This document shows, in pieces, positions 8,281-33,761 of a stretch of 33,761 bases of DNA. This DNA is from Deltaproteobacteria bacterium (GTDB lineage Bacteria > Myxococcota_A > Bradymonadia > REDH01). The first letter of the stretch is position 1. The number at the start of each line of letters is the position of its first letter. The DNA is taken from positions 1 to 33,761 of the forward strand of contig JABMMX010000136.1 of the NCBI GenBank assembly GCA_013205435.1, in the 5' to 3' direction. The position numbers and the translations under genes are program-made. The notes under the pieces were generated by a model that had not been told where the DNA came from, did not search any database, and was given only the letters and a program-made list of their open reading frames with translations.

Positions 8281-10083
8281 ATGGTACACGCTAGGCTCCT
8301 CATGCTTCTCGCAGCTGCCACGCTGCTCTCGGCCTGCTTCGACGTCACCCGCGACGGTATCAACGGCGGCAAAGTCGGCTTCCTCTGTGCCTCCGCCGCC
8401 GACTGTGTCGAGGGGTTCGGCTGCAACATCCCCCCCAATTCGCCCGACGGGCTCGGCGTTTGCCAAAAAGCCACCTCGTCGCAGTGCTATGATACGGACT
8501 CCGATGGCTTCTTCGCAGGCATTGGCTGCGAGAGTATCGAACGCGCCGACTGTGATGACACCAATCCCCAAGTCTCGCCCGGCGGCGTAGAGGTCTGCAA
8601 CGGAATCGACGACAACTGCGACGGCGAAACCGATGCCAACGTCGCCGCCGACGGCACCGTCAACCCCATGGCCGACGGCGATCGCTACCGCGAGTGCCCC
8701 AAGCAGATCGGCATCTGCAGCGGCGCACGCGTCGAGTGCACCGACGGCGCCTTCCCCGCCTGCGTCCCAGGCAATGGCTACCCCGCCAACTTCGAGCCCA
8801 GCGAGACCTCCTGCGATGGTATCGATAACGACTGCGACGCCGCCGCTGACGAAGACTGTGAGTGCGTCCCCGGCTCCGTCTCGACCTGCGTCTACACCGT
8901 CCTCCGCGACGACGTGGAGCGCACCGCGGTCGGACAGTGCGAGCGAGGCCTCCAGTTCTGCATCAACGGCGTCCGATCGGAGTGCCTTGCTGCGCCGGCA
9001 GTGGCAACCGCGGGCGTTCTCGTTGACTGCTCCGCCGACCCCGCCGTCTGCGGTGCCGGCTCCTACTGCGTCGATGAGGCCCTCGAGCCCAACGAAGACC
9101 TGGCTGACGGTTGCGAGCGCGTCTGTGGCACAGCCGAAATCCCCGCTGAAGACAACTGCGTCCTCAACGCGGCCTCCACCAACTGCACCCGCTCCGTCTG
9201 CCGCACCACGCAGGACGCCGGTGCCTGCACCGACGACGCCGGCTGCGACAACGGCTTCGCCTGTGTCCAGGCCGTCTGCCGTCGCATCAATGTCGCGCCC
9301 ACCGACGAGCTCTGCAACGGACTCGACGACAACTGCGACGGCATGGTCGACAACAAGACCGGCATCTCCGGCTCCGAGGTCTGCTCGCAGTGCCCCTTCA
9401 ACATGGTAAAGGTCCAGGCCGTTACCCCCTCGGGCGCCGCAGCCGATGTCTGTGTCGACCTCTACGAGGCCTCCCGCCCCGATGCCACCAGCGCCGACCA
9501 GGGACAGTTCGGCTACTACGCTCAGAGCGTCGCAGGCGTCCTTCCCTGGACCGGCGTCACCGCTGAGGAGGCCACCGCCGCCTGCCAGGGCGAAGACTAT
9601 TACGACTACTTCAAGCCCGGCCCGCGCCCCATCAAGAGCAAGCGCCTCTGCAGCTACTTCGAGTACGAGCAGGCCTGTGGCGGCGTGAACGGCGACCCGA
9701 ACGGAGACTACGCCTACCCCTACTCCACCACGCGCGCAGGCGACCAGTTCGTTGCCGGCGCCTGCAACGACGCTAGCAGCGCAAACGGCCTCCAGCCCAC
9801 CGGCACCTCCACCTGCGGCTTCGACTTCCAGACCGCTTCCGGCGACATCGTCACCACCTACGACATGGTCGGTAACGCAGCAGAGTGGGTCCGTGGCCCC
9901 GGCTCCAACCTCATTGCCGGAGGAAGCTACCTCGAGACACCCTCAGCCGCCACGCGCACCCGCAGCGGCTCGCCCACCCGCAGCGGCCCGGTCCTCTCCT
10001 GCACCGACCTCTCGCTCGCGCCCGCAGCAACCGACTCCGCTGAAGACATCGGCTTCCGCTGCTGCACCGCCGTCACGCCCTAG
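8281..10083 (+). CDS. Cys-rich lipoprotein with MopE-like D/C repeats and a C-terminal FGE-sulfatase-like domain
   Basis: Lipobox LLSAC. Repeats VCNGIDDNCDGETD, SCDGIDNDCDAAADEDC and LCNGLDDNCDGMVD. C-terminal 'TYDMVGNAAEWVRG...LIAGGSYLE...DIGFRC' is FGE/SUMF1-like. Confidence 0.8.
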   Translation: MVHARLLMLLAAATLLSACFDVTRDGINGGKVGFLCASAADCVEGFGCNIPPNSPDGLGVCQKATSSQCYDTDSDGFFAGIGCESIERADCDDTNPQVSPGGVEVCNGIDDNCDGETDANVAADGTVNPMADGDRYRECPKQIGICSGARVECTDGAFPACVPGNGYPANFEPSETSCDGIDNDCDAAADEDCECVPGSVSTCVYTVLRDDVERTAVGQCERGLQFCINGVRSECLAAPAVATAGVLVDCSADPAVCGAGSYCVDEALEPNEDLADGCERVCGTAEIPAEDNCVLNAASTNCTRSVCRTTQDAGACTDDAGCDNGFACVQAVCRRINVAPTDELCNGLDDNCDGMVDNKTGISGSEVCSQCPFNMVKVQAVTPSGAAADVCVDLYEASRPDATSADQGQFGYYAQSVAGVLPWTGVTAEEATAACQGEDYYDYFKPGPRPIKSKRLCSYFEYEQACGGVNGDPNGDYAYPYSTTRAGDQFVAGACNDASSANGLQPTGTSTCGFDFQTASGDIVTTYDMVGNAAEWVRGPGSNLIAGGSYLETPSAATRTRSGSPTRSGPVLSCTDLSLAPAATDSAEDIGFRCCTAVTP

Positions 10084-12902: not shown

Positions 12903-12976
12903 GGACCAATAGCTCAGGTGGTTAGAGCGCACCCTTGATAAGGGTGAAGTCGCAGGTTCAAGTCCTGCTTGGTCTA
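12903..12976 (+). tRNA. tRNA-Ile (anticodon GAT)
   Basis: Acceptor GGACCAA/TTGGTCT, anticodon arm CACCC-TTGATAA-GGGTG, T arm GCAGG-TTCAAGT-CCTGC. CCA is not encoded. Confidence 0.95.
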
Positions 12977-13000
12977 CTTACCCGCCCGACGGGATCGTTC

Positions 13001-13073
13001 GGGGCCTTAGCTCAGTTGGGAGAGCGCCGCCTTTGCAAGGCGGAAGTCATCGGTTCGAACCCGATAGGCTCCA
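13001..13073 (+). tRNA. tRNA-Ala (anticodon TGC)
   Basis: Acceptor GGGGCCT/AGGCTCC, anticodon arm CCGCC-TTTGCAA-GGCGG, T arm ATCGG-TTCGAAC-CCGAT. CCA is not encoded. Confidence 0.96.
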
Positions 13074-13075
13074 CT

Positions 13076-18089: not shown

Positions 18090-19820
18090 ATGAGGCTCCG
18101 CTCCTTTCAGTTGTTTGACACATCGGGCTCAACGCTTGTGGCGTTCGAGTCCGATGGTCGTTTTTGCGAGCCGATTGTGGCCACGCTCTGGCTTCACCGG
18201 CTGCCACTCCTGCTGCGAAGCCTCGTTCAGCCCCTATCGGTAGGCGATGACGAGCTCCTCGTTGCCTTATCCGGCGAGGTCGGATTTCGCTGGCAGTTTG
18301 AGGCCGAACTGCCAAGCCTGCAGTTCCGTATCGGCCGAGGCGTTGCGCAGGGTTCGGTGAGACTCGAAGTCCCCGACGGTCAGCAGGGCTGGCGGCAGGT
18401 CGCGCTGGGCGCCGAGGCCGTCGACGATCGGCTTGCGCGCAGGCTCGCCCTCGAACAGGCTGGCGCTGTGGCTGCGCTCTGGTTCGGGGCCGGACCTGCG
18501 ATTGCAGACCTCTCCGCCGTCTCTGCCGATGGTGAGCGCCCCGACTGGCTTGAGGTCGTCGACACGCGGCGCTCCACCTCGCAGGGTGCTGCCACGGCGC
18601 CACCCAACACCGCTCTTGCAGCGCTCGTCGAAGAGCTGCGGCAGACGCGCGTGAGCGACGCACTTGCTGCCGCAGAGAGCCGGCTCATGATGGTGAGCCT
18701 TGCCTTCTCGGTCGAAGACGACGGTATGGTGCAACTGCATGCCGACCTTGAGCGCGCAAGCAAAGCTGTTGCCTCTCTTGGGCCGATCCGTCGGCTCTCG
18801 GACGAGGAGGAGGAGCTGCTTGCCAGTAGTGCCCCGCCGCCGGCGCCCGCACGTCCTCCGCTGGGTGAGGCGCTCAAGGTCTGGTGGCAGGCAGAGTCTC
18901 GCGCCTGGGTGCCGGTCTTGGTGGGCAAACTGCTCGCGCTGGCGCTCTTTGCTGGTGCTGCCGCAGGTAGTCGAACGATGGGCAAGATGTTGCCGCTCAA
19001 TGTCCTGCTGCTCGCGTGGGCCGCCTGGGGCGCAAACCGGCTCTTCGACCGTCGTGCGACCGGTCGGCCGCTGATGACCCCGCTCTTCATCCGGCAGGCC
19101 GACCCAGTCGGCGACGCCCGTGCGGCGCTTGTCGAGGAGCTTGGCTGCGACTCGGTGGAGGAGCTGGACGAACGCAACAGACAGCGGGAGATCGCGGAGG
19201 AGCGCCGTGAGCGGGCGGAGCTGTCGCTGACCAGCATGGGCGGCGCGGTGGGTACTTCCGCAGCACCTAGCGAGGGGCTCTCGCCAGAGCGTATCCGACA
19301 GGCCCGCGCGCGGCTGGTCGTCTCGGGCCGGACCGCTGCGACGATCGAGCATGAGCTACGAAGCATGGGGTTCGAGCCAGAGGCGCTGCTTCAGCTGGAG
19401 GGCACGGCAGCTCTCACCGATGCGCTGGCGCCGCTCCGGGAGGCAGGACGAACGCTCGGGCTCTGGACGGAGTCGGCTCCTGCTCCCGAGTTGCTCTCAC
19501 CGTGGACCGCAGTGCTGCGGCAGACGCTCGGCCGTGAGGTCATCGAAGTCGCATCAGGGCCGGCCGGCGCGGCGCCGCTGTTTCGCGACAGCGCAGGCCC
19601 CGTCGTACTCACCCCAGGCGAGGCCACGCGGGCATTGGCGCTGCTCCGCATCGTCATGGTTCGGGCGGCGGTCTCTCGGCGCAAAGAGGGGGCGCTGGCG
19701 GTGATGGTGACGGCCGGGATGCTCGCCGGCGCAGAGGCGGCAGAGAGGCGGCAGTGGCGGAAGGTGCTCGCAGAGCTCTCGCCCTCGCTGCAGGTGATCT
19801 GTCTCGAGGCGGTCGGGTGA
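18090..19820 (+). CDS. Membrane protein of unknown function; possible degenerate SMC/YhaN-like protein
   Basis: 576-aa ORF between rplS and rnhB. Hydrophobic hairpin near 'VPVLVGKLLALALFAGAAAGSRTMGKMLPLNVLLLAWAAWG', followed by charged, coiled-coil-like sequence. Stop overlaps the rnhB GTG (GTGA). Confidence 0.7.
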   Translation: MRLRSFQLFDTSGSTLVAFESDGRFCEPIVATLWLHRLPLLLRSLVQPLSVGDDELLVALSGEVGFRWQFEAELPSLQFRIGRGVAQGSVRLEVPDGQQGWRQVALGAEAVDDRLARRLALEQAGAVAALWFGAGPAIADLSAVSADGERPDWLEVVDTRRSTSQGAATAPPNTALAALVEELRQTRVSDALAAAESRLMMVSLAFSVEDDGMVQLHADLERASKAVASLGPIRRLSDEEEELLASSAPPPAPARPPLGEALKVWWQAESRAWVPVLVGKLLALALFAGAAAGSRTMGKMLPLNVLLLAWAAWGANRLFDRRATGRPLMTPLFIRQADPVGDARAALVEELGCDSVEELDERNRQREIAEERRERAELSLTSMGGAVGTSAAPSEGLSPERIRQARARLVVSGRTAATIEHELRSMGFEPEALLQLEGTAALTDALAPLREAGRTLGLWTESAPAPELLSPWTAVLRQTLGREVIEVASGPAGAAPLFRDSAGPVVLTPGEATRALALLRIVMVRAAVSRRKEGALAVMVTAGMLAGAEAAERRQWRKVLAELSPSLQVICLEAVG

Positions 19821-20491
19821 GCCAGCTGGAGTTGGGGCTCTCACGCGGCCCGATGGGGCAGGTCGATCTGGAGGCCTTTGGGCAGGGCTACGACATCATC
19901 ATCGGGGTCGATGAGGCGGGTCGTGGTCCGCTCGCCGGGCCGGTGAGTACGGCGGGTATCGCGGTAACGCGCGCGCAGTGGGAGCAGCTCGAAGGGGTGA
20001 ACGACTCCAAACAGATGACGGCGGCCGGTCGTGCTGCGTGGGAGAGGCGCCTGCTGCTCCTGGGCGGCTGGCACCAGGTCGATCTCGCTGCCGAAGAGAT
20101 CGACCGGATGAACATCCTCGCGGCGTCGCTGGAGGGGATGCGGCGTTGCGCGGAGGCGCTCTGCGCGGGGCACACGGGCTCTCGGGTGCTGGTGCTGGTC
20201 GACGGCAACCATGGCCTGCGGTCGTTTGCGGGGGCGCAGCAACCGCTTGTTAAGGGCGATGCACGGAGCCGGGTGATTGCTGCTGCGTCGGTGCTGGCGA
20301 AGGAGCATCGCGATCGCGAAATGGCCCGTCTGGAGGCCCTCTACCCGGGCTACGGCTTTGGCAAGCACAAGGGCTATCCTACGCCGGCCCACCTTCGGGC
20401 ACTCTCCGAACTTGGTCCATCGCCTGTGCATCGGCTGAGTTATGCGCCTGTTGCGTTGTCAGCTGCAACATCGGCCGCGCGCCGCCGATAA
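19817..20491 (+). CDS. rnhB: Ribonuclease HII
   Basis: IIIGVDEAGRGPLAGPVSTAGI, GVNDSKQM, KGDARSRVIAAASVLAKEHRDREM and YPGYGFGKHKGYPTPAH. The ORF track start is 19754; the GTG at 19817 overlaps the upstream stop. Confidence 0.95.
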   Translation: MSQLELGLSRGPMGQVDLEAFGQGYDIIIGVDEAGRGPLAGPVSTAGIAVTRAQWEQLEGVNDSKQMTAAGRAAWERRLLLLGGWHQVDLAAEEIDRMNILAASLEGMRRCAEALCAGHTGSRVLVLVDGNHGLRSFAGAQQPLVKGDARSRVIAAASVLAKEHRDREMARLEALYPGYGFGKHKGYPTPAHLRALSELGPSPVHRLSYAPVALSAATSAARRR

Positions 20492-20520
20492 TGTACCATC
20501 GACACTTCGTCGGAGGAGGC

Positions 20521-20892
20521 ATGATGGACCGGCGATTGGAAGATGGAGCGCGGGGCGAGGCAATCGCAGCCGAGATGTTGGAGCGGGCAGGCATGCGGGT
20601 GGTGGCGCGCAATGTGCGCTATCGAGTCGGGGAGCTCGACATCATCGCCGAGGACGAAGGGACGCTGGTCTTCGTCGAGGTGCGGTCGCGATGGCGGCGT
20701 AACGGGCCGCGCGCCGAAGACACGGTGACCTTTGGAAAGCAGCGTCGGTTGTCGAAGGCGGCGCTGCTCTTCTGGAGGCTCTATCGGGGGCCGTGCCGGC
20801 GTGCGCGCTTCGATGTGATCGCAGTGGATCTAGCGCGGGGGCAGGTCGCGGCCCACCATCGTGCAGCCTTCGAGCTGCGCGAAGGCGGTTAG
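20521..20892 (+). CDS. yraN: UPF0102/YraN-family protein
   Basis: GARGEAIAAEMLERAGMRVVARNVRYRVGELDIIAEDEGTLVFVEVRSR...TFGKQRRLSKAALLF...RFDVIAVD. The ORF track starts at 20491. Confidence 0.92.
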   Translation: MMDRRLEDGARGEAIAAEMLERAGMRVVARNVRYRVGELDIIAEDEGTLVFVEVRSRWRRNGPRAEDTVTFGKQRRLSKAALLFWRLYRGPCRRARFDVIAVDLARGQVAAHHRAAFELREGG

Positions 20893-21463: not shown

Positions 21464-23116
21464 ATGTTCGATGACTCGAAGTCGATGATGAGGCGCATGT
21501 CGGCGCTGGCTGGCGTTGCCCTGATGACGGGCTTTCATGCCAATGCAGCGGCACAGGAGCAGCCGGCCCCCGCAGAGCCTGCGGCGGCGGAGTCGTGGGG
21601 CGACGAGGGCGGGTTCGAGTTCGACACGCAGGAGGCGCAGCCGGTAGGTGATGCGACGCCGGTCGCCCGCCTGATGGACGAGGGTCTCAAGCGTCTGGCC
21701 CGAGAGGACTTTGCCGGTGCGGCAGCCTCGTTCTGGTCGGTGCTGCAGGACCCCGACATCTCGGCCGATGCGATTCGTCCGCGGGCGCAGTTCGAGATGG
21801 GCAAGGCGCTCATGAAGCTGAAGATGTACGAAGGAGCGACGGTCTTTTTTGAAGAGATCGTGCGCGCGGGTCCCGTTCATCCCTACTTCGAGGCGACGGC
21901 GCCGTGGATGATGTTGCTGTCGCGCCGGGTGCCTGGCGACCCTGCGATGCTGAGCCGTATCTCGGCGTTCGGCTCGCTGTTTCCGGATCGCATCGACGCG
22001 AAGTACCGTGACGAGATGGCCTTCCTGCTTGGGCAGTATGCCTTCAACCAGGGCGAGTTGGAGAGCGCGCTCAGCTACTTTGCGCTGGTATCCCCCGACT
22101 CCACCTTCTGGGCGCGATCGCTTTACTACAAGGGCATTACCTATGTCCGTCAGTACGATGCGCAGCCGGCGGTCGATGCCTTCAAGGCGCTTCTGGCGCT
22201 CGACGGCAAGGGCGCAGAGGCTGCAGAGGGCAAGCGGCTGAACGAGATGGCGATGCTTGCGATGGCTCGGACCTTCTACTCGACGGGCGAGTTTGAGAAG
22301 TCGCTCCGACTCTTCGAAGGGATTCCGCTCGGCAGCTCCACCTGGCTGGACGCGCTGTTTGAGTCTTCGTGGGCCCACTTCCAGCTCGAACAGTCGAACC
22401 GCGCGCTCGGCAATCTTCACAGCCTCAACTCGCCCTTCTTCAGCGCGCAGTACTACCCCGAGGCGCCGATTCTTCAGGCGGTCATTCTGTTCGAGAGCTG
22501 CCGCTACACCGGCGTTCGCAAGACGCTTGACCTCTTCGATGATGTCTACGCACCGCTGCTTCAGCAGCTCGAGGCGTTGGCGACGGAGCGGACTTCGGAT
22601 CTTGACTACTTCGCTTTCTATGAGGCCTCTGAATCCCAGTTGGCGGCCGACTTCGACCCCCGCCTGCAGCAGATCACGCGCGCGGCGCTCTCGGATCGCA
22701 GCGTCCGCGAGGCGGAGGCTTTTGTGCGTCAGGTGGAGTCGGAGCGCGCTGCGCTTTCGAAGCTGCCGGCGGAGGTTGTCGCGGGACCCTTCGGGCAGTA
22801 CCTGGGTGGCAAACTCGACGGTGAGTTGGGGCTTGCTCAGACCAACCTGGGTGGTCTTGTGCGTCGGCGGATGGAGCGTATCACAGGCGAACTTCGGACG
22901 AAGCGGCGGGAGGCGGAGGCAATCCGCGTAGAGGTCGATCTCTCGGAGGCGTCGCTGTTGAAGGCGCAGAAGGCGATGGGCGCGGTGGGCGAGGTTCCGG
23001 ATGTTGTCTCGGAGACGCGTCCGGAGTGGTACCAGATGGCTTGGCCGTTCGAGAAGGAGTACTGGCGCGACGAGCTCGGCCACTACTCCTACCACATTGC
23101 GTCGAAGTGCCGCTGA
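21464..23116 (+). CDS. Exported TPR-repeat protein (first gene of Glt-like cluster)
   Basis: MFDDSKSMMRRMSALAGVALMTGFHANAAAQ signal-like N-terminus; repeated helical TPR-type segments (e.g. DFAGAAASFWSVLQDPDISADAIRPRAQFEMGKALMKL). The ORF track extends to 21332; another in-frame start is possible. Confidence 0.75.
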   Translation: MFDDSKSMMRRMSALAGVALMTGFHANAAAQEQPAPAEPAAAESWGDEGGFEFDTQEAQPVGDATPVARLMDEGLKRLAREDFAGAAASFWSVLQDPDISADAIRPRAQFEMGKALMKLKMYEGATVFFEEIVRAGPVHPYFEATAPWMMLLSRRVPGDPAMLSRISAFGSLFPDRIDAKYRDEMAFLLGQYAFNQGELESALSYFALVSPDSTFWARSLYYKGITYVRQYDAQPAVDAFKALLALDGKGAEAAEGKRLNEMAMLAMARTFYSTGEFEKSLRLFEGIPLGSSTWLDALFESSWAHFQLEQSNRALGNLHSLNSPFFSAQYYPEAPILQAVILFESCRYTGVRKTLDLFDDVYAPLLQQLEALATERTSDLDYFAFYEASESQLAADFDPRLQQITRAALSDRSVREAEAFVRQVESERAALSKLPAEVVAGPFGQYLGGKLDGELGLAQTNLGGLVRRRMERITGELRTKRREAEAIRVEVDLSEASLLKAQKAMGAVGEVPDVVSETRPEWYQMAWPFEKEYWRDELGHYSYHIASKCR

Positions 23117-23136
23117 TGCGGCAAGGGAGCGGGAAT

Positions 23137-26100
23137 ATGAACAAGGGCACGACGGTGTCACGTGCGGCTAGGATTCTGGGCGGCACTCTGCTGCTGCTGG
23201 CGCTCTCGGCGCCGGCGTCGGCGCAGGTGAGCAGCACCAAGAGCGAGGCGCAGATCCAGACCTTCAATCCTGCGCCTGAGGCGGCGCGCGAGAGTGTGTT
23301 CGAGGAGGCCAAGAAGGGGCCGGCTGACACCAAGCGGATGATGGCGGAGAAGATTGCCATCGAGGAGATTGAGCGCACAGAGACCGCTCTCTCGCGGCTC
23401 CGGAACCTGGTCAACACCACGCCCGCCGGAGATCGCGCGCGCGCCGACTATCTCTTCCGACTGGCAGAACTCTACTACGATCGGGCCCGCTACTACGAGC
23501 AGCGCGCCTACGACCGTCGTGACCAGGCCTTCGAGCAGAGCAAGAAAGACCCCGCGCGCGCCACTGCCTATCAGAAGGCGGCCGCCGACGACTTGTTCCA
23601 CTCGACGGAGTTCGCACAGAAGGCGATATCGCTCTACTCGGAGCTGTACGCCAACTACCGCGACACCTACGCCAACATCGACGCGGTGCTCTTCTACCTT
23701 GGCGCGAATCTGCTTCAGACCGACGACTCGGAGAGTGCGCGGGAGGTGTTTGAGGCGCTGGCCGTGAACTTCCCGGCCTCGCAGTATCTGGCGCAGGCCT
23801 ACTTCATGATCGGCGAGCTCGACTTCGGAATGGGCGACGCGGAAGCTGCGATGCAGTCCTACGAGCGGGCGGCGCAGTTCCCCGAGCGGAACATCTATCC
23901 CTTCGCGCTCTACAAGGTTGCCTGGTGCGCCTTCAATCTGGCCGAGACGGCGAAACAGAAGAAGGATGCCGTCAACCTGCTGTATGAGGCAATCCTCGCA
24001 GCCAAAGACAGGGTGGCCAAGCAGGGAGACTCCATGCGTCGGCTCCGGGACGACGCGCTCCGCGACATGACGCTCTTCTGGGCGGGCGCCTACAAGCAAA
24101 ATGATGCGCTGAAGTTCTTCACCAAGGTCACCGCCGAGACGGAGGTGTCGGAGGCTGAGCGTACGAAGTTGATCGCCCGACTGGCGCGCATCTACGGCGA
24201 GCGGGCCGACTACGCCGATTCGACTGCGCTGTTCCGGCAGCTGATTGAACTGTCGCCGAACGACTTTGCCATCGTGGGCTACCAGCGCGAGATTGTGCGC
24301 AACACGCGGCCCGACGGCAGCCGCGCCGACATCGTGAAGTCGCTCAACGACCTTACCGAGACGCTGTCGCGCGCGATGACCTTCCCGGTCGCTGACCCGG
24401 GCGACCTTCAGCGGGCGCGCGAAGAGGTGGAGCTGCTGCTCCGTCAGTTCAGCACGACCTACCATAACGACGCGCAGACAACGAACAACGAGCAGCTCTA
24501 CCAGCTCGCCGGCAGCCTCTATGAGAAGTACCTCGCGCTGTTCGGCGAACAGGCCGGCTCCTACGACATCTGGTTCTATGCAGGCGAACTGCAGTACCGA
24601 CTCAAGCACTGGTCTGAGGCGGCGGTGGCCTATGAGAAGGCACTGACGCTGAGTGGCGGCGTGACGGGCGAGGCGAAGGGGCGCTACGATCAGGAGGCGA
24701 CCTACGCCTCCTGTCTGGCGCAAACGAACCTGGTCGACATGAAGGGTTCGGTTCAGGCGACGGCGAGCAACAGCAACAGCCCCACGGGCGAACTGCCTCC
24801 CATCCCTGAGAAGCGCGAGATCTCGACCGCCTTCGTCAGCATGCTGTCGGCCTGTGAGCGTTACCTCAAGACTGGTCCGGAGGTCTCTGCGGAGACGGCC
24901 GAGATTGAGTATGCGGTGGCCTACACGCTCTATGACTACGACCATCTGGACGCGGCGGTCCCCAAGTTCGGGCGTCTTGCGCTTGACCTCTACGCGGCAG
25001 AGCCGGGGCGTGCGCAGGTCTCTGCGGAGCTGCTGCTTGATAGCCTTGCGCTGCAGCGTCGCTTCCCGGAGATGAAGGAGTGGATTGGACGCCTTGCGAC
25101 GGCCCCCGTGGGTCAGGGCAAGCTTGCGCCGAAGCTCCGTGAACTGGGTGAGCAGGTGAACTTCAAGGAGTGCCGCGACCTGCAGCAGGCCAAGAAGTTT
25201 GAGGATTCGGGACTCTGCTTCGTCGACTTCGCGCAGAACCACTTTGAGTCCAAGCTGCTCGACAAGGCGCTGTTCAACGCAGCGGTCTCGTATGAGAAGA
25301 TCTACAAGCTCGACTTCTCCATCTCGCTCTACGAACAGATCATCGAGTTCCGCCCCGACTCGGAGCTTGTGCCCGACACCACCTTCGGGCTTGCGCAGAC
25401 CTACCACCGCATCGCCATGTACGATAAGGCGGCCGACCTCTACGAGCAGTATACTCGGAACAACCCCAAGGGGACGCAGGTGGTGAACGCCTCGGCGAAC
25501 GCCTACCAGTTCCGGCAGGGACTCGGGCAGTACGACAAGGCCATCGCCAACCTCAAATCCTTCATCAAGGTCTCTGACCGCAGCAAGGCGAAGGATCGGG
25601 AGGGCATCGCCGAAGCCGACTATCAGATTGCCATGATTCAGATTGAGCAGGGCAAGAAGGCAGAGGCGACGGCGTCGCTCGAGCGCTTCGTGCGCGAGGA
25701 CGGTGATGTATCGCCAAGCCGTGCGATTGAGGCCCGCGTGAAGATGGCTGAAATGGCCCCGCCCGCGAAGGCAATCGCGCTCTTCATGGAGGCCCTCGTG
25801 GCGGTGGAGCGGTTGGAGCCTGCGGTGCGTGAGACGCTCACGCCTGCGGCGCTCGATGCAGCGTCGAAGGCGCAGTTCACGCTCGCGGAGCAGATCTTCA
25901 AGAAGTACGAAGCGATTGAGATGAAGGGCTCGGAGACGGATGTGAAGGCCGCGCTGCGCCTGAAGGCCGATGTGGGAACGCAGGCGCGCCAGGAGTTCGA
26001 CAAGGTTCGCCTGTTCAAGCGTCCGGGCTGGATGATCGCTTCGTCGACGCGGACGGGTCAGATGTACATGGACTTCTACAAGCGGGTTATCGACACCCCC

Positions 26101-26502
26101 ATCCCCGAGGGACTCCCGCCGCTGGTGGAGGAGGAGTACCGCTCGGTGCTCGAGGGCCAAGCGTTGGAGCTCAAGCAGCAGGCCAAGCAGTGGTTCGCGG
26201 GAGCGATCGAGGTCGCGCGTCGGACGGGCTGGTTCAACGACTACAGTGAGCAGGCGGCGAAGCTGCTTCAGGAGCTCGACCCGACCTTCAAGTCGTTGGC
26301 AGAGCTTCGTGTGTCGCCCGGCTACGACAGCGTCGGGTTCTATGCGCCCGGTTATGTGGATCCGAGTGAACAGAAGAAGGCCGGGATGCTCGGCGGTGAC
26401 GGGACGGGCGCCGATGCAACGCCCTCCGCCACGCCAGCGGCGGCGCCTGCGGCCCCTGAGGCTGCGCCCGCAGCAACCCCCAGCGAAGGAGGTCAGCCGT
26501 GA
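23137..26502 (+). CDS. Large exported TPR-repeat protein
   Basis: Signal peptide MNKGTTVSRAARILGGTLLLLALSAPASAQ; multiple TPR-like units (YLFRLAELYYDRARYYEQRAYD; AYFMIGELDFGMGDAEAAMQSYERAAQF; TFGLAQTYHRIAMYDKAADLYEQYTRNNP). Confidence 0.83.
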   Translation: MNKGTTVSRAARILGGTLLLLALSAPASAQVSSTKSEAQIQTFNPAPEAARESVFEEAKKGPADTKRMMAEKIAIEEIERTETALSRLRNLVNTTPAGDRARADYLFRLAELYYDRARYYEQRAYDRRDQAFEQSKKDPARATAYQKAAADDLFHSTEFAQKAISLYSELYANYRDTYANIDAVLFYLGANLLQTDDSESAREVFEALAVNFPASQYLAQAYFMIGELDFGMGDAEAAMQSYERAAQFPERNIYPFALYKVAWCAFNLAETAKQKKDAVNLLYEAILAAKDRVAKQGDSMRRLRDDALRDMTLFWAGAYKQNDALKFFTKVTAETEVSEAERTKLIARLARIYGERADYADSTALFRQLIELSPNDFAIVGYQREIVRNTRPDGSRADIVKSLNDLTETLSRAMTFPVADPGDLQRAREEVELLLRQFSTTYHNDAQTTNNEQLYQLAGSLYEKYLALFGEQAGSYDIWFYAGELQYRLKHWSEAAVAYEKALTLSGGVTGEAKGRYDQEATYASCLAQTNLVDMKGSVQATASNSNSPTGELPPIPEKREISTAFVSMLSACERYLKTGPEVSAETAEIEYAVAYTLYDYDHLDAAVPKFGRLALDLYAAEPGRAQVSAELLLDSLALQRRFPEMKEWIGRLATAPVGQGKLAPKLRELGEQVNFKECRDLQQAKKFEDSGLCFVDFAQNHFESKLLDKALFNAAVSYEKIYKLDFSISLYEQIIEFRPDSELVPDTTFGLAQTYHRIAMYDKAADLYEQYTRNNPKGTQVVNASANAYQFRQGLGQYDKAIANLKSFIKVSDRSKAKDREGIAEADYQIAMIQIEQGKKAEATASLERFVREDGDVSPSRAIEARVKMAEMAPPAKAIALFMEALVAVERLEPAVRETLTPAALDAASKAQFTLAEQIFKKYEAIEMKGSETDVKAALRLKADVGTQARQEFDKVRLFKRPGWMIASSTRTGQMYMDFYKRVIDTPIPEGLPPLVEEEYRSVLEGQALELKQQAKQWFAGAIEVARRTGWFNDYSEQAAKLLQELDPTFKSLAELRVSPGYDSVGFYAPGYVDPSEQKKAGMLGGDGTGADATPSATPAAAPAAPEAAPAATPSEGGQP

Positions 26503-27932
26503 AGCAGGCCAGAGCAATCAAGAAGATGATGCGTCTTGCGACCGGAGTTTCGTTGCTGCTGCTAGCTGCCTGCGGCGCACCCCAACAGGTGCAGGTGGAG
26601 CGGGCGCAGGAGACGGGTCCCGTAGTGGTCGAGCGTGTGAAGACGCCCGAAGAGATCGAGGCGGAGCGGGTTGAGACCCTCAAGGCCACAAGGCAGGCTG
26701 CTTTTGACGCCTATGCCGACAAGGCCGACGAGGGCCGTCTGAAGCGGGCAGAGGCGGCACTCCGCACGGCCGTAGCGTTGGACGCGGACGATCCAAACAC
26801 CTGGTTCAACCTCGGTTTGGTCCTTGCTGAGCAGGGCGACACCACAGCCGCTTCGGACGCCTTCACGCGTGCGCAGACCATCGACGCGCAGTTTATGCGG
26901 GGCAAGGCCTACGAGGGCTACATCAAGCTCAAAGAGGGCGATACGGTCGGCGCCGAGCGGGTCTTCCGCGACTGCATCACGTCGCGCGAGAACGAGACGG
27001 GCTGCAACATCAACCTTGCGATTCTGCAGCGGCAGAAGCTGCTCGCAGCTGGCAAGCGCGATGCGAAGTCGGCGCAGGAGGCGATCGTCTTCCTTCGGTT
27101 TGCACTTGCCGGCGAGTCGCTGAGCGCCGACGCCTACGCCAACCTGGCGCGCATTTACTTCGACCTAGGCCGCATTGAGCTGGCGCGGGTCGTCTGTGAG
27201 AACGCGATTCAGCTCGGCTCGGACGCGGCGACGCTCCACAACCGGCTCGGTCTGATTGCGCTTGCGCAAAAAGATGTGATCACGGCCTACCGAGAGTTCC
27301 TAGCAGCCGTGAAGCGCGATCCGGACTATGTGGATGCCCACATGAACATCGGTGCGATGGCGCTGAACTTCCGCGATTTTGAGGTCGCCAAGCGGTCGTT
27401 CGAAGCGGTTCTCGCCAAGCGTGAGAATGACCGCGATGCACGCCGCTCCTACGGGGTTGCGCTTCGCGGGCTCGACGACGGCGCCGGCGCCGAGGCGCAG
27501 TACAACCAGCTTCTCGCGCAGAACCCGAACGACTTTGCGACGCTCTACAACCTGGCAATCCTTCAGCAGGAGTTCAGCGGCGACTACCCGAAGGCGGTCG
27601 CGACCTTCGAGCAGTTGAAGGCGGCGGTCGGCAAGAGCCGGTTCGAGCGGATGGAGGATGTGGACAAGCGCATCGTCGCGCTCAAGACCCTCATTGAGTT
27701 TGGTGCCGGTGACCCTGAGCCGGAGCCGGAGGCTATGCCCGAGATGCTCGAAGGCATCGAGCCTGCACCGGCGGCCGAGCCCGCACCGGCAGCCGAGCCC
27801 GCACCGGCGGCCGAGCCCGCACCGGCGGCCGAGCCCGCACCGGCGGTTGAGCCCGCGCCGGCGGCTGAGCCCGCACCAGCAGCCGAGCCCGCACCGGCAG
27901 CCGAGCCGGCTCCGGAAGGTTCGGGAGCCTAG
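26499..27932 (+). CDS. TPR lipoprotein, GltE-like
   Basis: Lipobox SLLLLAACG; TPR units (NTWFNLGLVLAEQGDTTAASDAFTRAQ; VDAHMNIGAMALNFRDFEVAKRSFEAVL); C-terminal EPAPAA repeats. GGAGG before the GTG start, which overlaps the previous stop. The GltE assignment also relies on neighbourhood. Confidence 0.7.
   Translation: MKQARAIKKMMRLATGVSLLLLAACGAPQQVQVERAQETGPVVVERVKTPEEIEAERVETLKATRQAAFDAYADKADEGRLKRAEAALRTAVALDADDPNTWFNLGLVLAEQGDTTAASDAFTRAQTIDAQFMRGKAYEGYIKLKEGDTVGAERVFRDCITSRENETGCNINLAILQRQKLLAAGKRDAKSAQEAIVFLRFALAGESLSADAYANLARIYFDLGRIELARVVCENAIQLGSDAATLHNRLGLIALAQKDVITAYREFLAAVKRDPDYVDAHMNIGAMALNFRDFEVAKRSFEAVLAKRENDRDARRSYGVALRGLDDGAGAEAQYNQLLAQNPNDFATLYNLAILQQEFSGDYPKAVATFEQLKAAVGKSRFERMEDVDKRIVALKTLIEFGAGDPEPEPEAMPEMLEGIEPAPAAEPAPAAEPAPAAEPAPAAEPAPAVEPAPAAEPAPAAEPAPAAEPAPEGSGA
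27759..27914 (+). repeat. In-frame 18-bp tandem repeat encoding EPAPAA
   Basis: Unit approximately GAGCCCGCACCGGCGGCC; about 8 full copies plus a partial copy, with a few substitutions (one EPAPAV). Confidence 0.93.
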
Positions 27933-27941
27933 TCAGGAACT

Positions 27942-27970
27942 TTGAGCAAACGTGGGTGTCAAGGTAACGC
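27942..27970 (+). promoter_or_regulatory. Weak candidate promoter TTGAGC-N17-TAACGC
   Basis: Located in the 60-nt gap before the 79-aa ORF at 27996. Confidence 0.25.
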
Positions 27971-27995
27971 GGCAGTCCGACGAAGGGAGTGAACA

Positions 27996-28235
27996 ATGAA
28001 TCAAAAGATCACTTTGAGCATGGTTGCTGGACTTCTCCTGCTTGCCTCTTCGGCCTCGGCCCAAGAGACGCAGAAGGAGACCAATTTCAACTTCGAAGAG
28101 GACGTTGTCACCGGTACCTTGGTCCGTCCGGACCAGGAGACAGTGACCGGTCTTCGTCGTGGCAAGGAGTCGAGCTTGATCAAGATCCGGAAGGATTTTG
28201 TGACGGAGATGGTGCAGTCGGTAGAGCGCTTCTGA
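27996..28235 (+). CDS. Small exported protein, CglF-like candidate
   Basis: Signal peptide MNQKITLSMVAGLLLLASSASAQ and mature 'ETNFNFEEDVVTGTLVRPDQETVTGLRRGKESSLIKIRKDFVTEMVQSVERF'. AGGGAG before the ATG. Lies between the GltE-like and GltG-like genes. Confidence 0.6.
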   Translation: MNQKITLSMVAGLLLLASSASAQETQKETNFNFEEDVVTGTLVRPDQETVTGLRRGKESSLIKIRKDFVTEMVQSVERF

Positions 28236-28277
28236 GCGTGTTCGGCGAGAGCGGGCGTTCGAACCTGAGGATGAACG

Positions 28278-30026
28278 ATGTCTGAATCGAGACTGTTGAT
28301 TTTTGAGATCTATCGCGATGGCGCCCACGAGCGCACGGAGCGGTTAGAGCAGGACGTTGTGAAGATTGGCAGCCATGCCAAGTCCCACATCTTCCTAGAT
28401 GACGCGAATGTGAGCCGCGTGCATGCCGTGGTGGAGGTTACGGGTGACGACGTGTTCGTCATCGACCTCGGCTCCGGGAAGGGCACGACGGTAGCGGGTC
28501 AACGTGTGAACAAGCAGAAGCTTTCGCATGGCGACCGGATTGGCGTGGGCGGCTACGAGCTTGTCATTCGCTTCCACGAGGTGGGTGAGCGGAGCGGCGC
28601 CGGTGGCGCAGGCGGCGGCTCAGAGACGGTTGTAGTGGAGACGGACGACGAGATTTACACGCGCCGCTTCCTGCGCCGTGCTGAGAAGTCGGATGGTTCG
28701 GTCGAAGCGGCGATGCTGTTCCGCGACCTTGTGATCGTAGACGACCTGTACCAGCTGCCGACGACGCTGAAGGTCGGTTCGGGCGCTGATTGCCAGTTCC
28801 AGATTGAGTTGGACCTGATCCCGGGCGGCGAGATTGTGTTGCTGGAGGTGTCGAACGGCGAGCCGGTTCTTCTTCTCCGCGAGGGGATGGAGGGCGAGAT
28901 CTGGGTTGGCGATAGCCACTTCACGCCTGCCGAGGCGATGGCGTCGGGCCGTGCGACGCAGGCGGGAGCAGTCTGGAAGTTGGCGCTGACGGGTGAGACG
29001 CGCGCCCGGCTCGTGATGGGGGAGCTGGTCTTCTTCTTGCGCCGGAGCGAGATTCCCAAGTTCGTCTTCCCGATCAAGCGCGACTGGCGTGCAGCAGGTC
29101 TTGCGCTGGCGGTGTCGACGCTCATTCAGGGTGGGCTTATCCTCGTGTCGCTGCTGATGCCCCCAGAGGTCGGCGAGCTCGCCATGGAGCGTGAGGCGCA
29201 GCTGAATCGCTACGTGCAGATGCTTCTCGTGAAGCCTGAGGAAAAGAAGCCCGAGGAGAAGCCTGAGTGGCTGAAGGAGAAGCAGGAGGCCGACGAGAAG
29301 GCCGACAAGGGTGCTGAGAAGGCTGATAAGAGCAAGCCCGAGGACAAGCCGAAGGATAAGCCGGAGGAGGTGACGGAGCTCGCCCGTGCTGAGGCGCGCG
29401 ACGAGGCTATGAACCGCGGCGCAGTTGATGTGCTGAACCAGCTCGGTCCATCGAATGTCTTTGGTGGCGATGCAGCGGCAGGTGTGGCGGAGCTTGAGGC
29501 GATTGGTGGCGTGAGCGACACGGGCCTGGGCCAGAGCTACGGGCAGGGCGGTCTGGGTAAGTTTGGCGGCGGCCTCCAAGGTGGCGGCGGCCGGCTGTCG
29601 ACGGGCGTTGGCGGTGGCGCGATCGGCGTTGGTCGTTCGGGCGGTAGCAATGTCGGCGGAAATCTCCGCGAGGTGTCGGGCCGCAAGGTGCGCACGCCGG
29701 TGGTTTCGTCGCAGCCGTTCACGCTGACGGGGGCGCTCGACATGGACATCGTTCGTCGCGTCATCGCCGAGCATCGGCGCGAGATCGTGGCCTGCTACGA
29801 GACGGAGCTTCAGAAGGTACCGGACCTCCAGGGGCGTATCGACGTGGAGTTCGTCATCGGGCCTGATGGCGCTGTGGGCGGAACGAAGCTGAAGGCGTCG
29901 ACCATGAAGAACGATGCGGTACACGCCTGTGTCCAGCGCCGCGTAAAGCAGTGGCGCTTTCCTGAGCCGAAGGGAGGAGGAACGGTACGCGTCTCCTACC
30001 CGTGGATCTTCACCTCTGGCGGTTAG
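28278..30026 (+). CDS. FHA - TM - Lys/Glu-rich and Gly-rich linker - AgmX/PglI C-terminal domain protein (GltG-like)
   Basis: N-terminal FHA-like (HIFLDDANVSRVHAVVEVTGDDVFVIDLGSGKGTTVAG); TM GLALAVSTLIQGGLILVSLLM; C-terminal EIVACYETELQKVPDLQGRIDVEFVIGPDGAVGGTKLKASTMKNDAVHACVQRRVKQWRFPEPKGGGTVRVSYPWIF. Confidence 0.8.
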   Translation: MSESRLLIFEIYRDGAHERTERLEQDVVKIGSHAKSHIFLDDANVSRVHAVVEVTGDDVFVIDLGSGKGTTVAGQRVNKQKLSHGDRIGVGGYELVIRFHEVGERSGAGGAGGGSETVVVETDDEIYTRRFLRRAEKSDGSVEAAMLFRDLVIVDDLYQLPTTLKVGSGADCQFQIELDLIPGGEIVLLEVSNGEPVLLLREGMEGEIWVGDSHFTPAEAMASGRATQAGAVWKLALTGETRARLVMGELVFFLRRSEIPKFVFPIKRDWRAAGLALAVSTLIQGGLILVSLLMPPEVGELAMEREAQLNRYVQMLLVKPEEKKPEEKPEWLKEKQEADEKADKGAEKADKSKPEDKPKDKPEEVTELARAEARDEAMNRGAVDVLNQLGPSNVFGGDAAAGVAELEAIGGVSDTGLGQSYGQGGLGKFGGGLQGGGGRLSTGVGGGAIGVGRSGGSNVGGNLREVSGRKVRTPVVSSQPFTLTGALDMDIVRRVIAEHRREIVACYETELQKVPDLQGRIDVEFVIGPDGAVGGTKLKASTMKNDAVHACVQRRVKQWRFPEPKGGGTVRVSYPWIFTSGG

Positions 30027-30089
30027 TTGGCGCTGTCTGCGGCGCAGGCCGGAGATGCGGTGGATGCTGGGGAAAATGGCACTCCCCGC

Positions 30090-30117
30090 TTGCCGATGGT
30101 TTGGCAGCGGGTAGAGT
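30090..30117 (+). promoter_or_regulatory. Candidate promoter TTGCCG-N16-TAGAGT
   Basis: Intergenic, upstream of the ATG at 30177. Confidence 0.35.
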
Positions 30118-30176
30118 GAGCGTTGTGTTCGAATGTGCCGCGCTCGTCGGTGCAGGCTTCTTCGGGAGAGCGCTCC

Positions 30177-31061
30177 ATGCAGTTTGGTTGGTGTTTGCTT
30201 CTGGTCTGTCTGTCCGCTCCCTTTTTTGGCGGGTGCGATGCGAAGCGTGCCGAGGCCCTTCAGTTGGTGGAGAAGGGGCTCGCAGTTGCCGCCGAGAACG
30301 GTGAGTTCGAGGCAGAGAAGCTGTTCAGCGAAGCAGCAAACATCTGCCCCGAGTGTGGCGAGGCGCACCTCAACCGCGGCGTGCTTCAGCTTCAACACTA
30401 TCGCAACCCATCGGAGGCTGTGGGTTCGCTCGAGCGCGCCACGAAACTGCTGCCGACCGATGTTTCTGCGCACTACTACTTGGGTGTGGCGCTTCAGGAT
30501 CTCGGCAAGTCCGAGCGGGCCGAGGCGGCCTTTGGCGAGGCGCTGAAGATCAACGCAGGCCACGCTCTCTCTCTCCTGCACCTGGGGCGGCTGATGGAGG
30601 CCGCCGACAAGCCGCTCGAGGCGGCGTCGCGTTACAACGCTGCCATCGTTGCCGACGGCTACCTGGCGCAGGCCTATGTCTCTCTCGGTTCGCTCTATGC
30701 GCGGTACGGTCGTTTCGCTGACTCGAAAGCGGTGTTCGACAACGGGCTTGCGAACAACAGCAGCTCGCCCGCGCTGATGGCTGCCGCTGGTTACGCAGCG
30801 CTCTCGTCGGGTGACACCGACCGGGCGATCGACCTGCTGAAGAAGGGGTTTGAAGCGGGCGATACCAGCCCCAGCACACCTTACAATCTGGGCGTTGCCT
30901 ACGGCCGGCGCTTTGACGCAACGGGGGATCAGGAGGCGCGCCGGTACGCTGTTGCTGCGCTTGCGCGCGCGCAGACGAGCTGTAAGGCCGCCACGGAGGC
31001 CGCGCGTTGTGCGGCGACGCGCGATCGCATTGCACGGCTTGAGCTGCTCAAGCAGAACTGA
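30177..31061 (+). CDS. TPR-repeat lipoprotein
   Basis: MQFGWCLLLVCLSAPFFGGCDAK lipobox; TPR units (DVSAHYYLGVALQDLGKSERAEAAFGEALKINAGHALSLLHLGRLMEA). The ORF track start is 30123. Confidence 0.8.
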   Translation: MQFGWCLLLVCLSAPFFGGCDAKRAEALQLVEKGLAVAAENGEFEAEKLFSEAANICPECGEAHLNRGVLQLQHYRNPSEAVGSLERATKLLPTDVSAHYYLGVALQDLGKSERAEAAFGEALKINAGHALSLLHLGRLMEAADKPLEAASRYNAAIVADGYLAQAYVSLGSLYARYGRFADSKAVFDNGLANNSSSPALMAAAGYAALSSGDTDRAIDLLKKGFEAGDTSPSTPYNLGVAYGRRFDATGDQEARRYAVAALARAQTSCKAATEAARCAATRDRIARLELLKQN

Positions 31062-31141
31062 CGCACCGAGAGGCTGCGTTATCCGATTTCAGATAGTATG
31101 AGACTGGGGTCTGCAGACCCTGTTTCCTCGCCCAAGTGAAG

Positions 31142-33761
31142 ATGATGTCGAACCAGATTGCCAAGTTGCTCGCCGACCTTGCCGCCCGCCCTCAGCAGGT
31201 GGAACTGATAGATGAACTGGATCTGGCTTGGAGCAGCGAGGGCGACTGGGAGACGGTGGTCCGTGAGGTTCCCGTTCACGCGCGGCGCCTCTCAGACGGC
31301 GCGGCCTCTGCACGGCTGCTCGCGCGGTCGGCCTACATCGCGCGGCTGGGGTTGGATGATTCGGCGACTGCAGACGCGCTTCTGAACGAGGCGCTGACGC
31401 GGTCGTCCGATGCCGCAGCCTTTGCAGCGGCTGTGGTTGCGAGCGTGGAGAGTTCGGACGACTGGGATGTCGTGCTGGGCGCGCTAGAAGATGCGGAGGC
31501 AGCGATTGCATCTGCCGGCGCGAAGAGCCGGCTCGTTGTTGCGCAGGGCGTTGTTTTTGAGACGCACAAGCAGGACCACAAGTCTGCGATCGCGGCCTTC
31601 AAGCGGGCGGCGGAACTCGACCCGACGCATGCGGAGGCCTTCCGCCGCGGCCGGCTGCTTTTTGCGGCTGCCGGGAACTGGGAGAAGGTCGCGACCTTCC
31701 TCGGCGCTGAGGCGAAACTCGCTGGTTCGGCAGCTGCAAAGGCTGCGTTGATCGCCGAGGTGGCGGAGGTTCAGTTTGCCCATCTGGGTAATCCGTCTGC
31801 TGCGCGCGTGAAGGTTGCGGAGGCGCTGGCGATCGATGCGAGCTGCGCGGCTGCGCTCATGCTTTCGGCCAAGTTGCCGGCCGATCTGGGGGCCGGAGGC
31901 ACCGCGGTGCTGACAGCGCTTCCCGAGCCGGCGGCAGCACCTGTTGCGGCGGCTCCCATTGCGCCATCGCTGGTTGCACCCGCCCCGAAGCCGCCAGCGG
32001 CTCCTGCGGTCGCGGCACCTGTTGCGGCACCTGTTGCGGCACCTGTTGTGGCGGCTCCGGTTGTAGCAGCTCCGGTTGTGGCTCCTGTGGCGGCAGCGCC
32101 TTCGTTTGGTGCGCCGGCAACGGTCGCCGGCCCTCTCGACGCGGCCCGTTTTTTCCCGCTCGGGTGGGATGGCATCACGGCCTACATCGATGACCTGCGC
32201 GAGATTGCCTACGGCAGCGCCGAGGGTGCGACGCGGCTTGGTTCGCGTATCGTTGACCTTTTGGCGCGCGATGGCGCGGGCGACGATGCGCTGGCGCGTG
32301 AAGCCTGGGATCTGCTAAGCCTTTCGGACGACAAGTTCGGCCTCGCGCGGCAGCTTCTTGCGCCGCTTTATTGCCGCCGAAATGCGTGGTCAGAGCTGGA
32401 GATGCAGCTCGCTGACGCCGACAGCTCCGAGCCCGATGGTGGCTGGGCTGGCGCGCTCTATGTGGCCCGCTTCAATGCGCTTGGCGACCGTGCCGGTGCG
32501 GCGGAGATTGCGAGTCGTGCGGGTGCTGCCGCGCAGCGTGACGCAGAGGTTATCGACGCCGTTGTGAAGGGGAACTGGCGCAAGGCGCAGACGACCTTCA
32601 TGGAGCGGCTGTCGGGCTTTGGCGCGGCCGCTGAGGCAGAATCCTACCGTGAACTCGCCTACCTCGCGCTTGGCTTCCACGCCGAAGACAAGGTGGCAGA
32701 CTCGCTCCGCCGCGTGCTCAAGGCCAACAAGGCGGACGCCAGCGCGCGTGAGCTCGCGAAGGCGGTCTATCGTCGCAGCGAGAAGTGGCAGCCGCTCGCA
32801 GAGCTGCTGAAGCAGCATGCAGACGAGGCGCAGCGCGAGTCGTCGTGGCGGAGTTCGATGCTGCGTGAGCTGCTGCGCATCTACCGCGATGAGCTCAAGC
32901 AGGACATGCTGGTCGTGACGACCTACCAGGCGCTCGCGCAGCTTCACCCGACCGACCTTTCGCTCCTCGACGAGCTCGGCGGCCGGCTGGAGTCGCTGGG
33001 TCGCTGGCCCGATCTCATCGATGTGCGCCGCAAGCGGATCGCGGCGTTGGATAGCGATTCCGACCGCATCATGGCGATGCGTGAGCTTGCGCAGCTCTAC
33101 CTGGTCCGGTTCTCGAACCAGGCTGAGGCCATCAAGCTGTTCGAGCAGATTCGCGAGTTGGACGAGTCGGACGACGGCGCCATTGCCTCCCTTGAAGACC
33201 TCTATGACAAGCGTCGTGAGTGGGAGAAGCTCATTGCGATCAAGCGGATGCTCGCCGAACGGGCCTTCGGGAACGATGAGCGCATCAAGTATCTGCGCGA
33301 TGCGGCCGATGTCGCTGCGACCAAGGCGCGGAAGCCGGAGCTTGCGGTTGCGCTCTGGGGCGAGGTGCTCGACTGCGACGCGAACGACCTTCAGGCGCTG
33401 TCGGCGCTCGAGCAGGGTTACGAGCGGGAGAAGAACTTTGCCCGTCTTGCGGAGATTGTGGAGCGGAAGGCTGCGGCGACGATGGAGGCCGCCCCGAAGG
33501 CGCTGGCGCTGCTCAAGCTGGCGCAGCTTCTGGGTGATCGTCTCGGGCAGACCGAGCGTGCGCTTGAGGTCTACGAGGAGCTCCTCACGGTGGAGCCGGC
33601 CAATGCGCGAGCACGGGAGGCCATCCGCAAGGGCGCCATTGAACTCCAGCAGTGGGAGCGGCTCGAACTGCTCTACGCGCGGGACGAGAACTGGTCGGAG
33701 TATGCCCGCCAGTTGGAGGGGCTCGTTGGCACGGTCAAGCAGGCCGACATCAAGGTGGAGC
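31142..33761 (+). CDS. Very large TPR-repeat protein, 3' truncated by window edge (not in supplied ORF track)
   Basis: Open frame from ATGATG at 31142/31145 to the window end (at least 873 codons). Begins (M)MSNQIAKLLADLAARPQQVELIDELDLAWSSEGDWETVVREV; TPR-like segments; A/P/V-rich linker near 31910-32105. Confidence 0.8.
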   Translation, partial: MMSNQIAKLLADLAARPQQVELIDELDLAWSSEGDWETVVREVPVHARRLSDGAASARLLARSAYIARLGLDDSATADALLNEALTRSSDAAAFAAAVVASVESSDDWDVVLGALEDAEAAIASAGAKSRLVVAQGVVFETHKQDHKSAIAAFKRAAELDPTHAEAFRRGRLLFAAAGNWEKVATFLGAEAKLAGSAAAKAALIAEVAEVQFAHLGNPSAARVKVAEALAIDASCAAALMLSAKLPADLGAGGTAVLTALPEPAAAPVAAAPIAPSLVAPAPKPPAAPAVAAPVAAPVAAPVVAAPVVAAPVVAPVAAAPSFGAPATVAGPLDAARFFPLGWDGITAYIDDLREIAYGSAEGATRLGSRIVDLLARDGAGDDALAREAWDLLSLSDDKFGLARQLLAPLYCRRNAWSELEMQLADADSSEPDGGWAGALYVARFNALGDRAGAAEIASRAGAAAQRDAEVIDAVVKGNWRKAQTTFMERLSGFGAAAEAESYRELAYLALGFHAEDKVADSLRRVLKANKADASARELAKAVYRRSEKWQPLAELLKQHADEAQRESSWRSSMLRELLRIYRDELKQDMLVVTTYQALAQLHPTDLSLLDELGGRLESLGRWPDLIDVRRKRIAALDSDSDRIMAMRELAQLYLVRFSNQAEAIKLFEQIRELDESDDGAIASLEDLYDKRREWEKLIAIKRMLAERAFGNDERIKYLRDAADVAATKARKPELAVALWGEVLDCDANDLQALSALEQGYEREKNFARLAEIVERKAAATMEAAPKALALLKLAQLLGDRLGQTERALEVYEELLTVEPANARAREAIRKGAIELQQWERLELLYARDENWSEYARQLEGLVGTVKQADIKVE

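Follow-up and report, generated by a model that had tools for sequence, protein, structure and literature searches.

A Glt-type gene cluster with no motor gene beside it, conserved across the Myxococcota

Introduction

Which envelope machine is encoded by a run of seven genes in which no motor gene is seen, and what would drive it? The genes in question (gltC to gltI, positions 21464–33761) lie at the end of contig C83 of an uncultured freshwater myxobacterium, the freshwater habitat being taken from the record titles of its relatives. The entire contig of 33,761 nt constituted the window analysed here, and the host genome comprises 3.67 Mb on 404 contigs and is 81% complete. An earlier sequence-only reading had proposed a trans-envelope complex related to the Glt (gliding) and Nfs (spore-coat) systems and possibly served by a remote motor. 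What is new here is an operon found phylum-wide, a probable motor on another contig of the host genome and a conserved component that has had no name.

The Agl-Glt/Nfs class was described between 2011 and 2013, and most knowledge of the Glt machine comes from Myxococcus xanthus. In that species the Glt genes form clusters G1 (gltD-E-F-G-H-I-J) and G2 (gltK-B-A-C), in addition to AglRQS, the motor genes being unlinked to either cluster; GltD is an exported protein of 1191 amino acids (aa), and GltI, with 4132 aa, has no signal peptide and is not exported (Luciano, 2011; PMC3169522). Glt and Nfs are paralogous and AglRQS works with both (PMC3858216), while Nfs is devoid of GltI, GltJ and GltK. 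GltG binds AglR, GltG and GltJ resemble TolA/TonB, and GltA and GltB are possible TonB-box barrels (PMC5349195).

Results

The window carries a Glt-type operon

As previously described, all seven genes were present in the same orientation, with intergenic spacings of −4 to +150 bp and with the seventh gene truncated by the contig end (Table 1). From their sequences we assign the products as GltC, GltD, GltE, CglF (GltF), GltG, a tetratricopeptide repeat (TPR) lipoprotein designated here as GltX, and GltI. The labels GltD and GltI denote position, length and export signal or architecture, with no NCBIfam model behind either, and all signal peptides and lipoboxes were judged by eye.

Table 1. 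Coordinates of the Glt-type genes in the window and of the two genes flanking them upstream.
Gene	Product	Position	Strand	Features
gltC homologue	Exported TPR protein	21464..23116	+	Type I signal peptide; 550 aa from ATG at 21464
gltD-position gene	Exported 1128-aa TPR protein	23116..26502	+	Signal peptide, many TPRs
gltE homologue	TPR lipoprotein	26499..27932	+	Lipobox LLAAC; EPAPAA repeat tail at C-terminus
cglF (gltF) homologue	Exported protein, 79 aa	27996..28235	+	NF033764 match
gltG homologue	FHA, transmembrane helix, TonB-like tail	28278..30026	+	NF033760; Pfam FHA, TonB_C
gltX	TPR lipoprotein, 294 aa	30177..31061	+	Open reading frame 30123–31061, ATG at 30177, FFGGC lipobox
gltI-position gene	Giant TPR protein	31136..33761 (contig end)	+	No signal peptide; first 875 aa only
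rnhB	RNase HII	19754..20491	+	Matches over cut-off to Pfam RNase_HII and in NCBIfam; flanks the operon upstream, no part of the machine
yraN		20491..20892	+	Pfam UPF0102 over cut-off; upstream flank of the operon, not a machine part

Comparison with the Glt families, which had been suggested as a check, gave matches for four of the proteins. GltC matched NF033756 with 279 bits (E 7.9e-83, profile positions 111–619 of 622; cut-off 450), and its C-terminal motif EYWRDELG was invariant among relatives. GltG matched NF033760 with 296 bits (E 5.9e-88; cut-off 650) and CglF matched NF033764 with 57 bits (E 1.3e-15; cut-off 90), the latter being aligned with one paralogue and four orthologues. GltE reached 86.8 bits with NF033758 (E 1.5e-24; cut-off 225), about equal to the 88.4 bits obtained with the generic TPR model PilW. 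The GltD-position protein, whose gene overlaps the gltC stop by 1 bp and might alternatively start at 23137, matched no GltD model in NCBIfam and gave TPR/YbgF matches instead. Likewise, no NCBIfam Glt model matched the GltI-position protein; three complete orthologues measured 3919, 3926 and 3989 aa, and that of genome G005 is about 4026 aa long.

GltG displayed the architecture expected of this Glt protein. Its tail scored over the cut-off with NF033768 (AgmX/PglI C-terminal), as did the Pfam domains FHA and TonB_C, and an AlphaFold2 model combined with the Pfam matches delimited an FHA domain (residues 6–100), whose fold was confirmed by a Foldseek search with the model, a second beta domain (141–257), one transmembrane helix (270–293), a disordered Gly-rich linker and a TonB-like C-terminal domain (473–581). 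When compared with same-genus copies, all seven genes were under purifying selection (ratio of non-synonymous to synonymous substitution rates, dN/dS, 0.055–0.125; 0.09 for gltC). Given the NCBIfam E-values, the phylum-wide gene order described below and the dN/dS of every gene, the cluster is more than a chance assembly. An unrelated TPR cluster is excluded by the GltC, GltG and CglF profiles and by the synteny; a lack of Glt/Nfs similarity with an unrelated conserved neighbourhood was looked for and did not occur.

The operon is conserved throughout the phylum

A search of named genomes returned 272 stretches with a GltC homologue, and locus counts were made for the best 80 of these, using for each gene only those loci whose contig extends far enough. 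gltD followed gltC in all 70 loci, and gltE (59/61), cglF (56/60) and gltG (53/56) were found in their respective positions, whereas an AglR or ExbD gene was present in none of the 80. The order C-D-E-F-G-X-I recurred throughout the Myxococcota, including Sorangium; in Sorangium cellulosum (L137, L151 and L156) the same operon was accompanied by two divergent barrel genes upstream. One genome (G058), the only one sampled that scored over the GltC cut-off, had the order barrel-C-D-E-F-G-X-I-J within one cluster. Overall, a GltC homologue was detected in 217 of the 286 phylum genomes sampled. As a separate observation, two to three tandem GltG-like genes or fragments occurred inside the operon at L210:7291-11317 (G010) and L079:12004-16242 (G038).

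The GltC proteins of the window and of 'Myxococcales bacterium isolate ZH-13may13-111' shared 97% identity, and the record titles of the nearest named relatives denote metagenome assemblies from lakes.

The only AglRQS-type trio lies in another Glt-type operon

In agreement with the sequence-only reading, a profile search of the window proteins revealed no MotA, ExbB, ExbD or barrel gene in the window. A remote motor had been envisaged, and such a candidate was indeed located on contig C200 of the same genome, which harbours three Glt-type clusters, i.e. the window, C242/C84 and C248/C200. C242/C84, joined via a 69-bp exact overlap, shows the order barrel-C-D-E-F followed by a GltJ-type gene. 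C248/C200 is a paralogous 'core' operon whose two contigs share an end overlap of 129 bp (94.6%) and form one contiguous stretch in the sister genome G001; it reads C-D-E-AglR-ExbD-ExbD-G and includes the only AglRQS-type trio (a MotA-type and two ExbD-type genes in one operon) of the host genome. In a tree computed without the M. xanthus AglR, the C200 AglR formed a group (96/90) with two stand-alone trios of Sorangium So ce26, outside the TolQ and the ExbB/TonB types. Both ExbD proteins retain the membrane Asp (AMIDMM, read by eye). In the GltC tree the window copy fell among main-locus genes, away from the core-operon GltC; the second paralogue sat on a very long branch, its placement being unsure.

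AglRQS-type trios were present in the genomes examined closely. In G010, which is assembled as one contig and is 99% complete, we counted four GltC homologues, five MotA loci and one AglRQS-type trio, the latter located in the core operon approximately 0.8 Mb from the Glt operon.

The C200 trio rules out a complete loss of the motor. The sets on C125 and C85 and the TolQ set were rejected as motor candidates, since by their neighbours and the tree they resemble ordinary ExbB-ExbD-TonB or Tol systems. An additional small motor set on C92 (L005:2-3576) comprises MotA, one ExbD and two further proteins, one of 254 aa with a GltG-type C-terminus and one of 302 aa that belongs to no family; the set is also found in G001 on contig C96. 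On the − strand of C279 (L020:5366-7195), a Ser/Thr protein kinase domain is fused to an AgmX/PglI tail (56.9 bits, over cut-off) and, given the phosphopeptide-type FHA domain of GltG, this kinase may be linked to GltG.

Barrels, GltJ-type proteins and MglA are encoded elsewhere in the genome

The genome search that had been recommended also revealed GltA/B-type barrels (TIGR04565, all at or above the cut-off of 60 bits), two in tandem on C165 and one on C242, as well as GltJ-type proteins on C172 and C84 with GYF_2 and Zn_ribbon_4 over the cut-off and a TonB-like tail under it. MglA at first seemed absent, since the Pfam Arf profile missed it in the host genome; an MglA protein query, however, detected a copy split between the contig ends of C273 and C211. 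The host MglA is 85% identical to the protein of a relative, which in turn matched the M. xanthus MglA in the PDB with an E-value of 7e-84.

GltX, a conserved lipoprotein between GltG and GltI

The gltG–gltI interval contained a GltX-type TPR protein of about 295 aa at 44 of the 54 loci with room for it, and gltX showed a dN/dS of 0.08–0.11. The Cys close to the N-terminus was kept in at least 90% of the rows of a 34-sequence alignment; in many Polyangia the sequence leading up to it (GGNC) is not a canonical lipobox. The AlphaFold2 model was a TPR solenoid (pLDDT 94.6), and a structure search with GltX returned generic TPR superhelices only.

GltX is absent from the GltA–K parts list. The corresponding interval in M. 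xanthus is that of agmV (MXAN_4864/65), a transposon hit from a motility screen that was discounted in 2011 as unlikely to be a true gene (PMC3169522), while AgmV was later reported from outer-membrane vesicles of this species (PMC4158809). No M. xanthus locus was among the best 80 of the 272 GltC-bearing stretches, and the equation of GltX with AgmV is put forward as a lead, drawn from position and localization. GltX may be an overlooked component of the gliding machine, and we tentatively suggest, as a proposal somewhat more apt to fail than to hold, that it is a real and ancient part of that machine at AgmV's place and that a single AglRQS motor serves several Glt-type machines per cell. 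GltX is a defined and conserved candidate part that is open to a direct test by deletion.

Discussion

Taken together, the window probably encodes the envelope part of a surface-transport machine of the Agl-Glt class, most likely for gliding, that is driven in trans by the C200 trio. The sequences themselves support the identity of GltC, GltG and CglF, the cluster and its conservation, and the presence of a remote trio, barrels, GltJ-type proteins and MglA; that all these parts form one complex, with the C200 trio as its driver and gliding as its output, is what we infer from them. The assignment of the driver is based on the published TonB-like, AglR-binding nature of GltG and on the service of AglRQS to both Glt and Nfs in M. 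xanthus. In such a machine the C200 proton channel would energize GltG, with its FHA domain directed towards the cytoplasm and its C-terminal domain spanning the periplasm, and GltI would be a cytoplasmic scaffold controlled by MglA. The exported TPR proteins GltC, GltD, GltE and GltX together with CglF would pass force to the GltA/B-type outer-membrane barrels of C165 and C242, which could then relay it to the cell surface.

With M. xanthus Glt the operon shares the order D-E-F-G-...-I, the FHA, transmembrane and TonB-like domains of GltG, CglF, a GltI of about 4,000 aa without a signal peptide and an unlinked motor, and the host genome also contains MglA, GltA/B-type barrels and GltJ-type proteins. 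In contrast to M. xanthus, gltC comes first, no gltH is seen, an extra TPR lipoprotein is placed between gltG and gltI, gltJ and the barrels are elsewhere in the host genome, and profile scores remain under the equivalog cut-offs. A 'core complex' of Group B consists of gltD, E, G and C with aglRQS in one operon (PMC3169522). C248/C200 likewise reads C-D-E-R-Q-S-G, whereas the operon of the window includes CglF, GltX and GltI and lacks a motor, and neither it nor any of the 80 loci carries aglRQS inside a C-D-E-G operon. The Glt-like cluster of Bdellovibrio (L155; Bd0828-0838 in PMC3169522) has the same order, barrel-C-D-E-F-G, with no GltX in the 2.2 kb fetched 3' of gltG, and B. bacteriovorus is devoid of GltH, GltI, GltJ and GltK homologues (PMC3169522).

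Several points weigh against this reading. GltC, GltE, CglF and GltG are homologues rather than NCBI equivalogs, as all four missed their cut-offs, and GltD and GltI, without an NCBIfam match, are based on position, length and architecture. No separate gltH gene occurs in the 150 bp between gltG and gltX, and the operon showed nothing resembling GltH or GltK, although neither these two nor CglB and AglZ were sought across the genome. MglA matches were found in 56 of 58 relatives, and since MglA has a role in type IV pili and their polarity as well, it is not diagnostic of gliding. Furthermore, the lone trio lies within a different C-D-E-G operon, which might be all that it serves, and as the host genome is 81% complete, a further trio could be missing.

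A first alternative is that the motor is a different MotA-ExbD pair, with the C92 set as the foremost candidate, or a trio lost from the assembly. The 254-aa protein beside the C92 MotA and its one ExbD matched positions 398–649 of the GltG profile with 133 bits, and the assembly is fragmented. The C92 MotA, however, grouped with ExbB/TonB-type pairs and not with trios, it is accompanied by a single ExbD only, and no second trio occurs in single-contig G010, which carries a Glt operon, so that we regard a driver other than the C200 trio as rather unlikely.

The second alternative concerns the output, i.e. an Nfs-like use in which the complex moves or organizes surface polysaccharide (coat, capsule or slime) and the cell does not glide. 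The common motor of the paralogous Glt and Nfs systems (PMC3858216) would permit it, the window operon holds C–G clustered without a motor gene, as do the nfsA–H genes of M. xanthus, and the nearest relatives stem from lake samples. On the other hand, the Nfs cluster includes A, B and H and no GltI, GltJ or GltK, whereas the window operon has a gene in the GltI position, A, B and H are absent from it, with the A/B-type barrels unlinked, and GltJ-type proteins and MglA are encoded in the genome. Gliding is favoured over an Nfs-like spore-coat role by the operon's GltI and by the MglA that the genome encodes, and a polysaccharide function in place of gliding appears unlikely. Among the functions proposed in the sequence-only reading (surface transport, polysaccharide organization or motility), gliding is accordingly the one that we infer and the spore-coat role is disfavoured.

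That the complex is a passive scaffold tethering peptidoglycan or outer membrane, its motor no longer used, agrees with the lack of a motor gene beside the operon in all 80 loci and is nevertheless very improbable, as GltG retains its transmembrane helix and TonB-like domain, the M. xanthus motor is likewise unlinked and the genomes examined closely do have trios.

For an Agl-Glt-class machine driven in trans, the conservation of the operon across uncultured Myxococcota has two consequences. With GltC homologues in 217 of the 286 genomes sampled, machines of the gliding type are probably common in lakes and sediments, and a fixed operon with its motor always elsewhere, together with one trio against four GltC homologues in G010, renders 'one motor, several machines' testable.

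Flanking genes and other observations

A scan for promoters and terminators gave counts equal to or under those of shuffled controls. yraN adjoined gltC, on either strand, in most named loci, and in nearer relatives trmD, and often rnhB, lay further upstream, the order in close ones being trmD-rnhB-yraN-gltC. On the 3' side of gltI, rsmI (TP_methylase) was found in G005 and, as judged by the N-terminus alone, in G035 and G038; some relatives have the operon flanked by yraN and rsmI. The outer-membrane lipoprotein gene lpoA of E. coli occupies the place between rsmI and yraN.

Further features of the window were an open reading frame of 576 aa (18090–19820) located 5' of rnhB that matched nothing in NCBIfam or Pfam, and a tRNA-Ile(GAT) gene adjoining tRNA-Ala(TGC) (12903–13074); this pair is usually situated inside an rRNA operon, and no rRNA gene was found in the window. 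In addition, an open reading frame of 600 aa (8281–10083) contained a putative metal-binding motif of the MopE type (Pfam PF11617).

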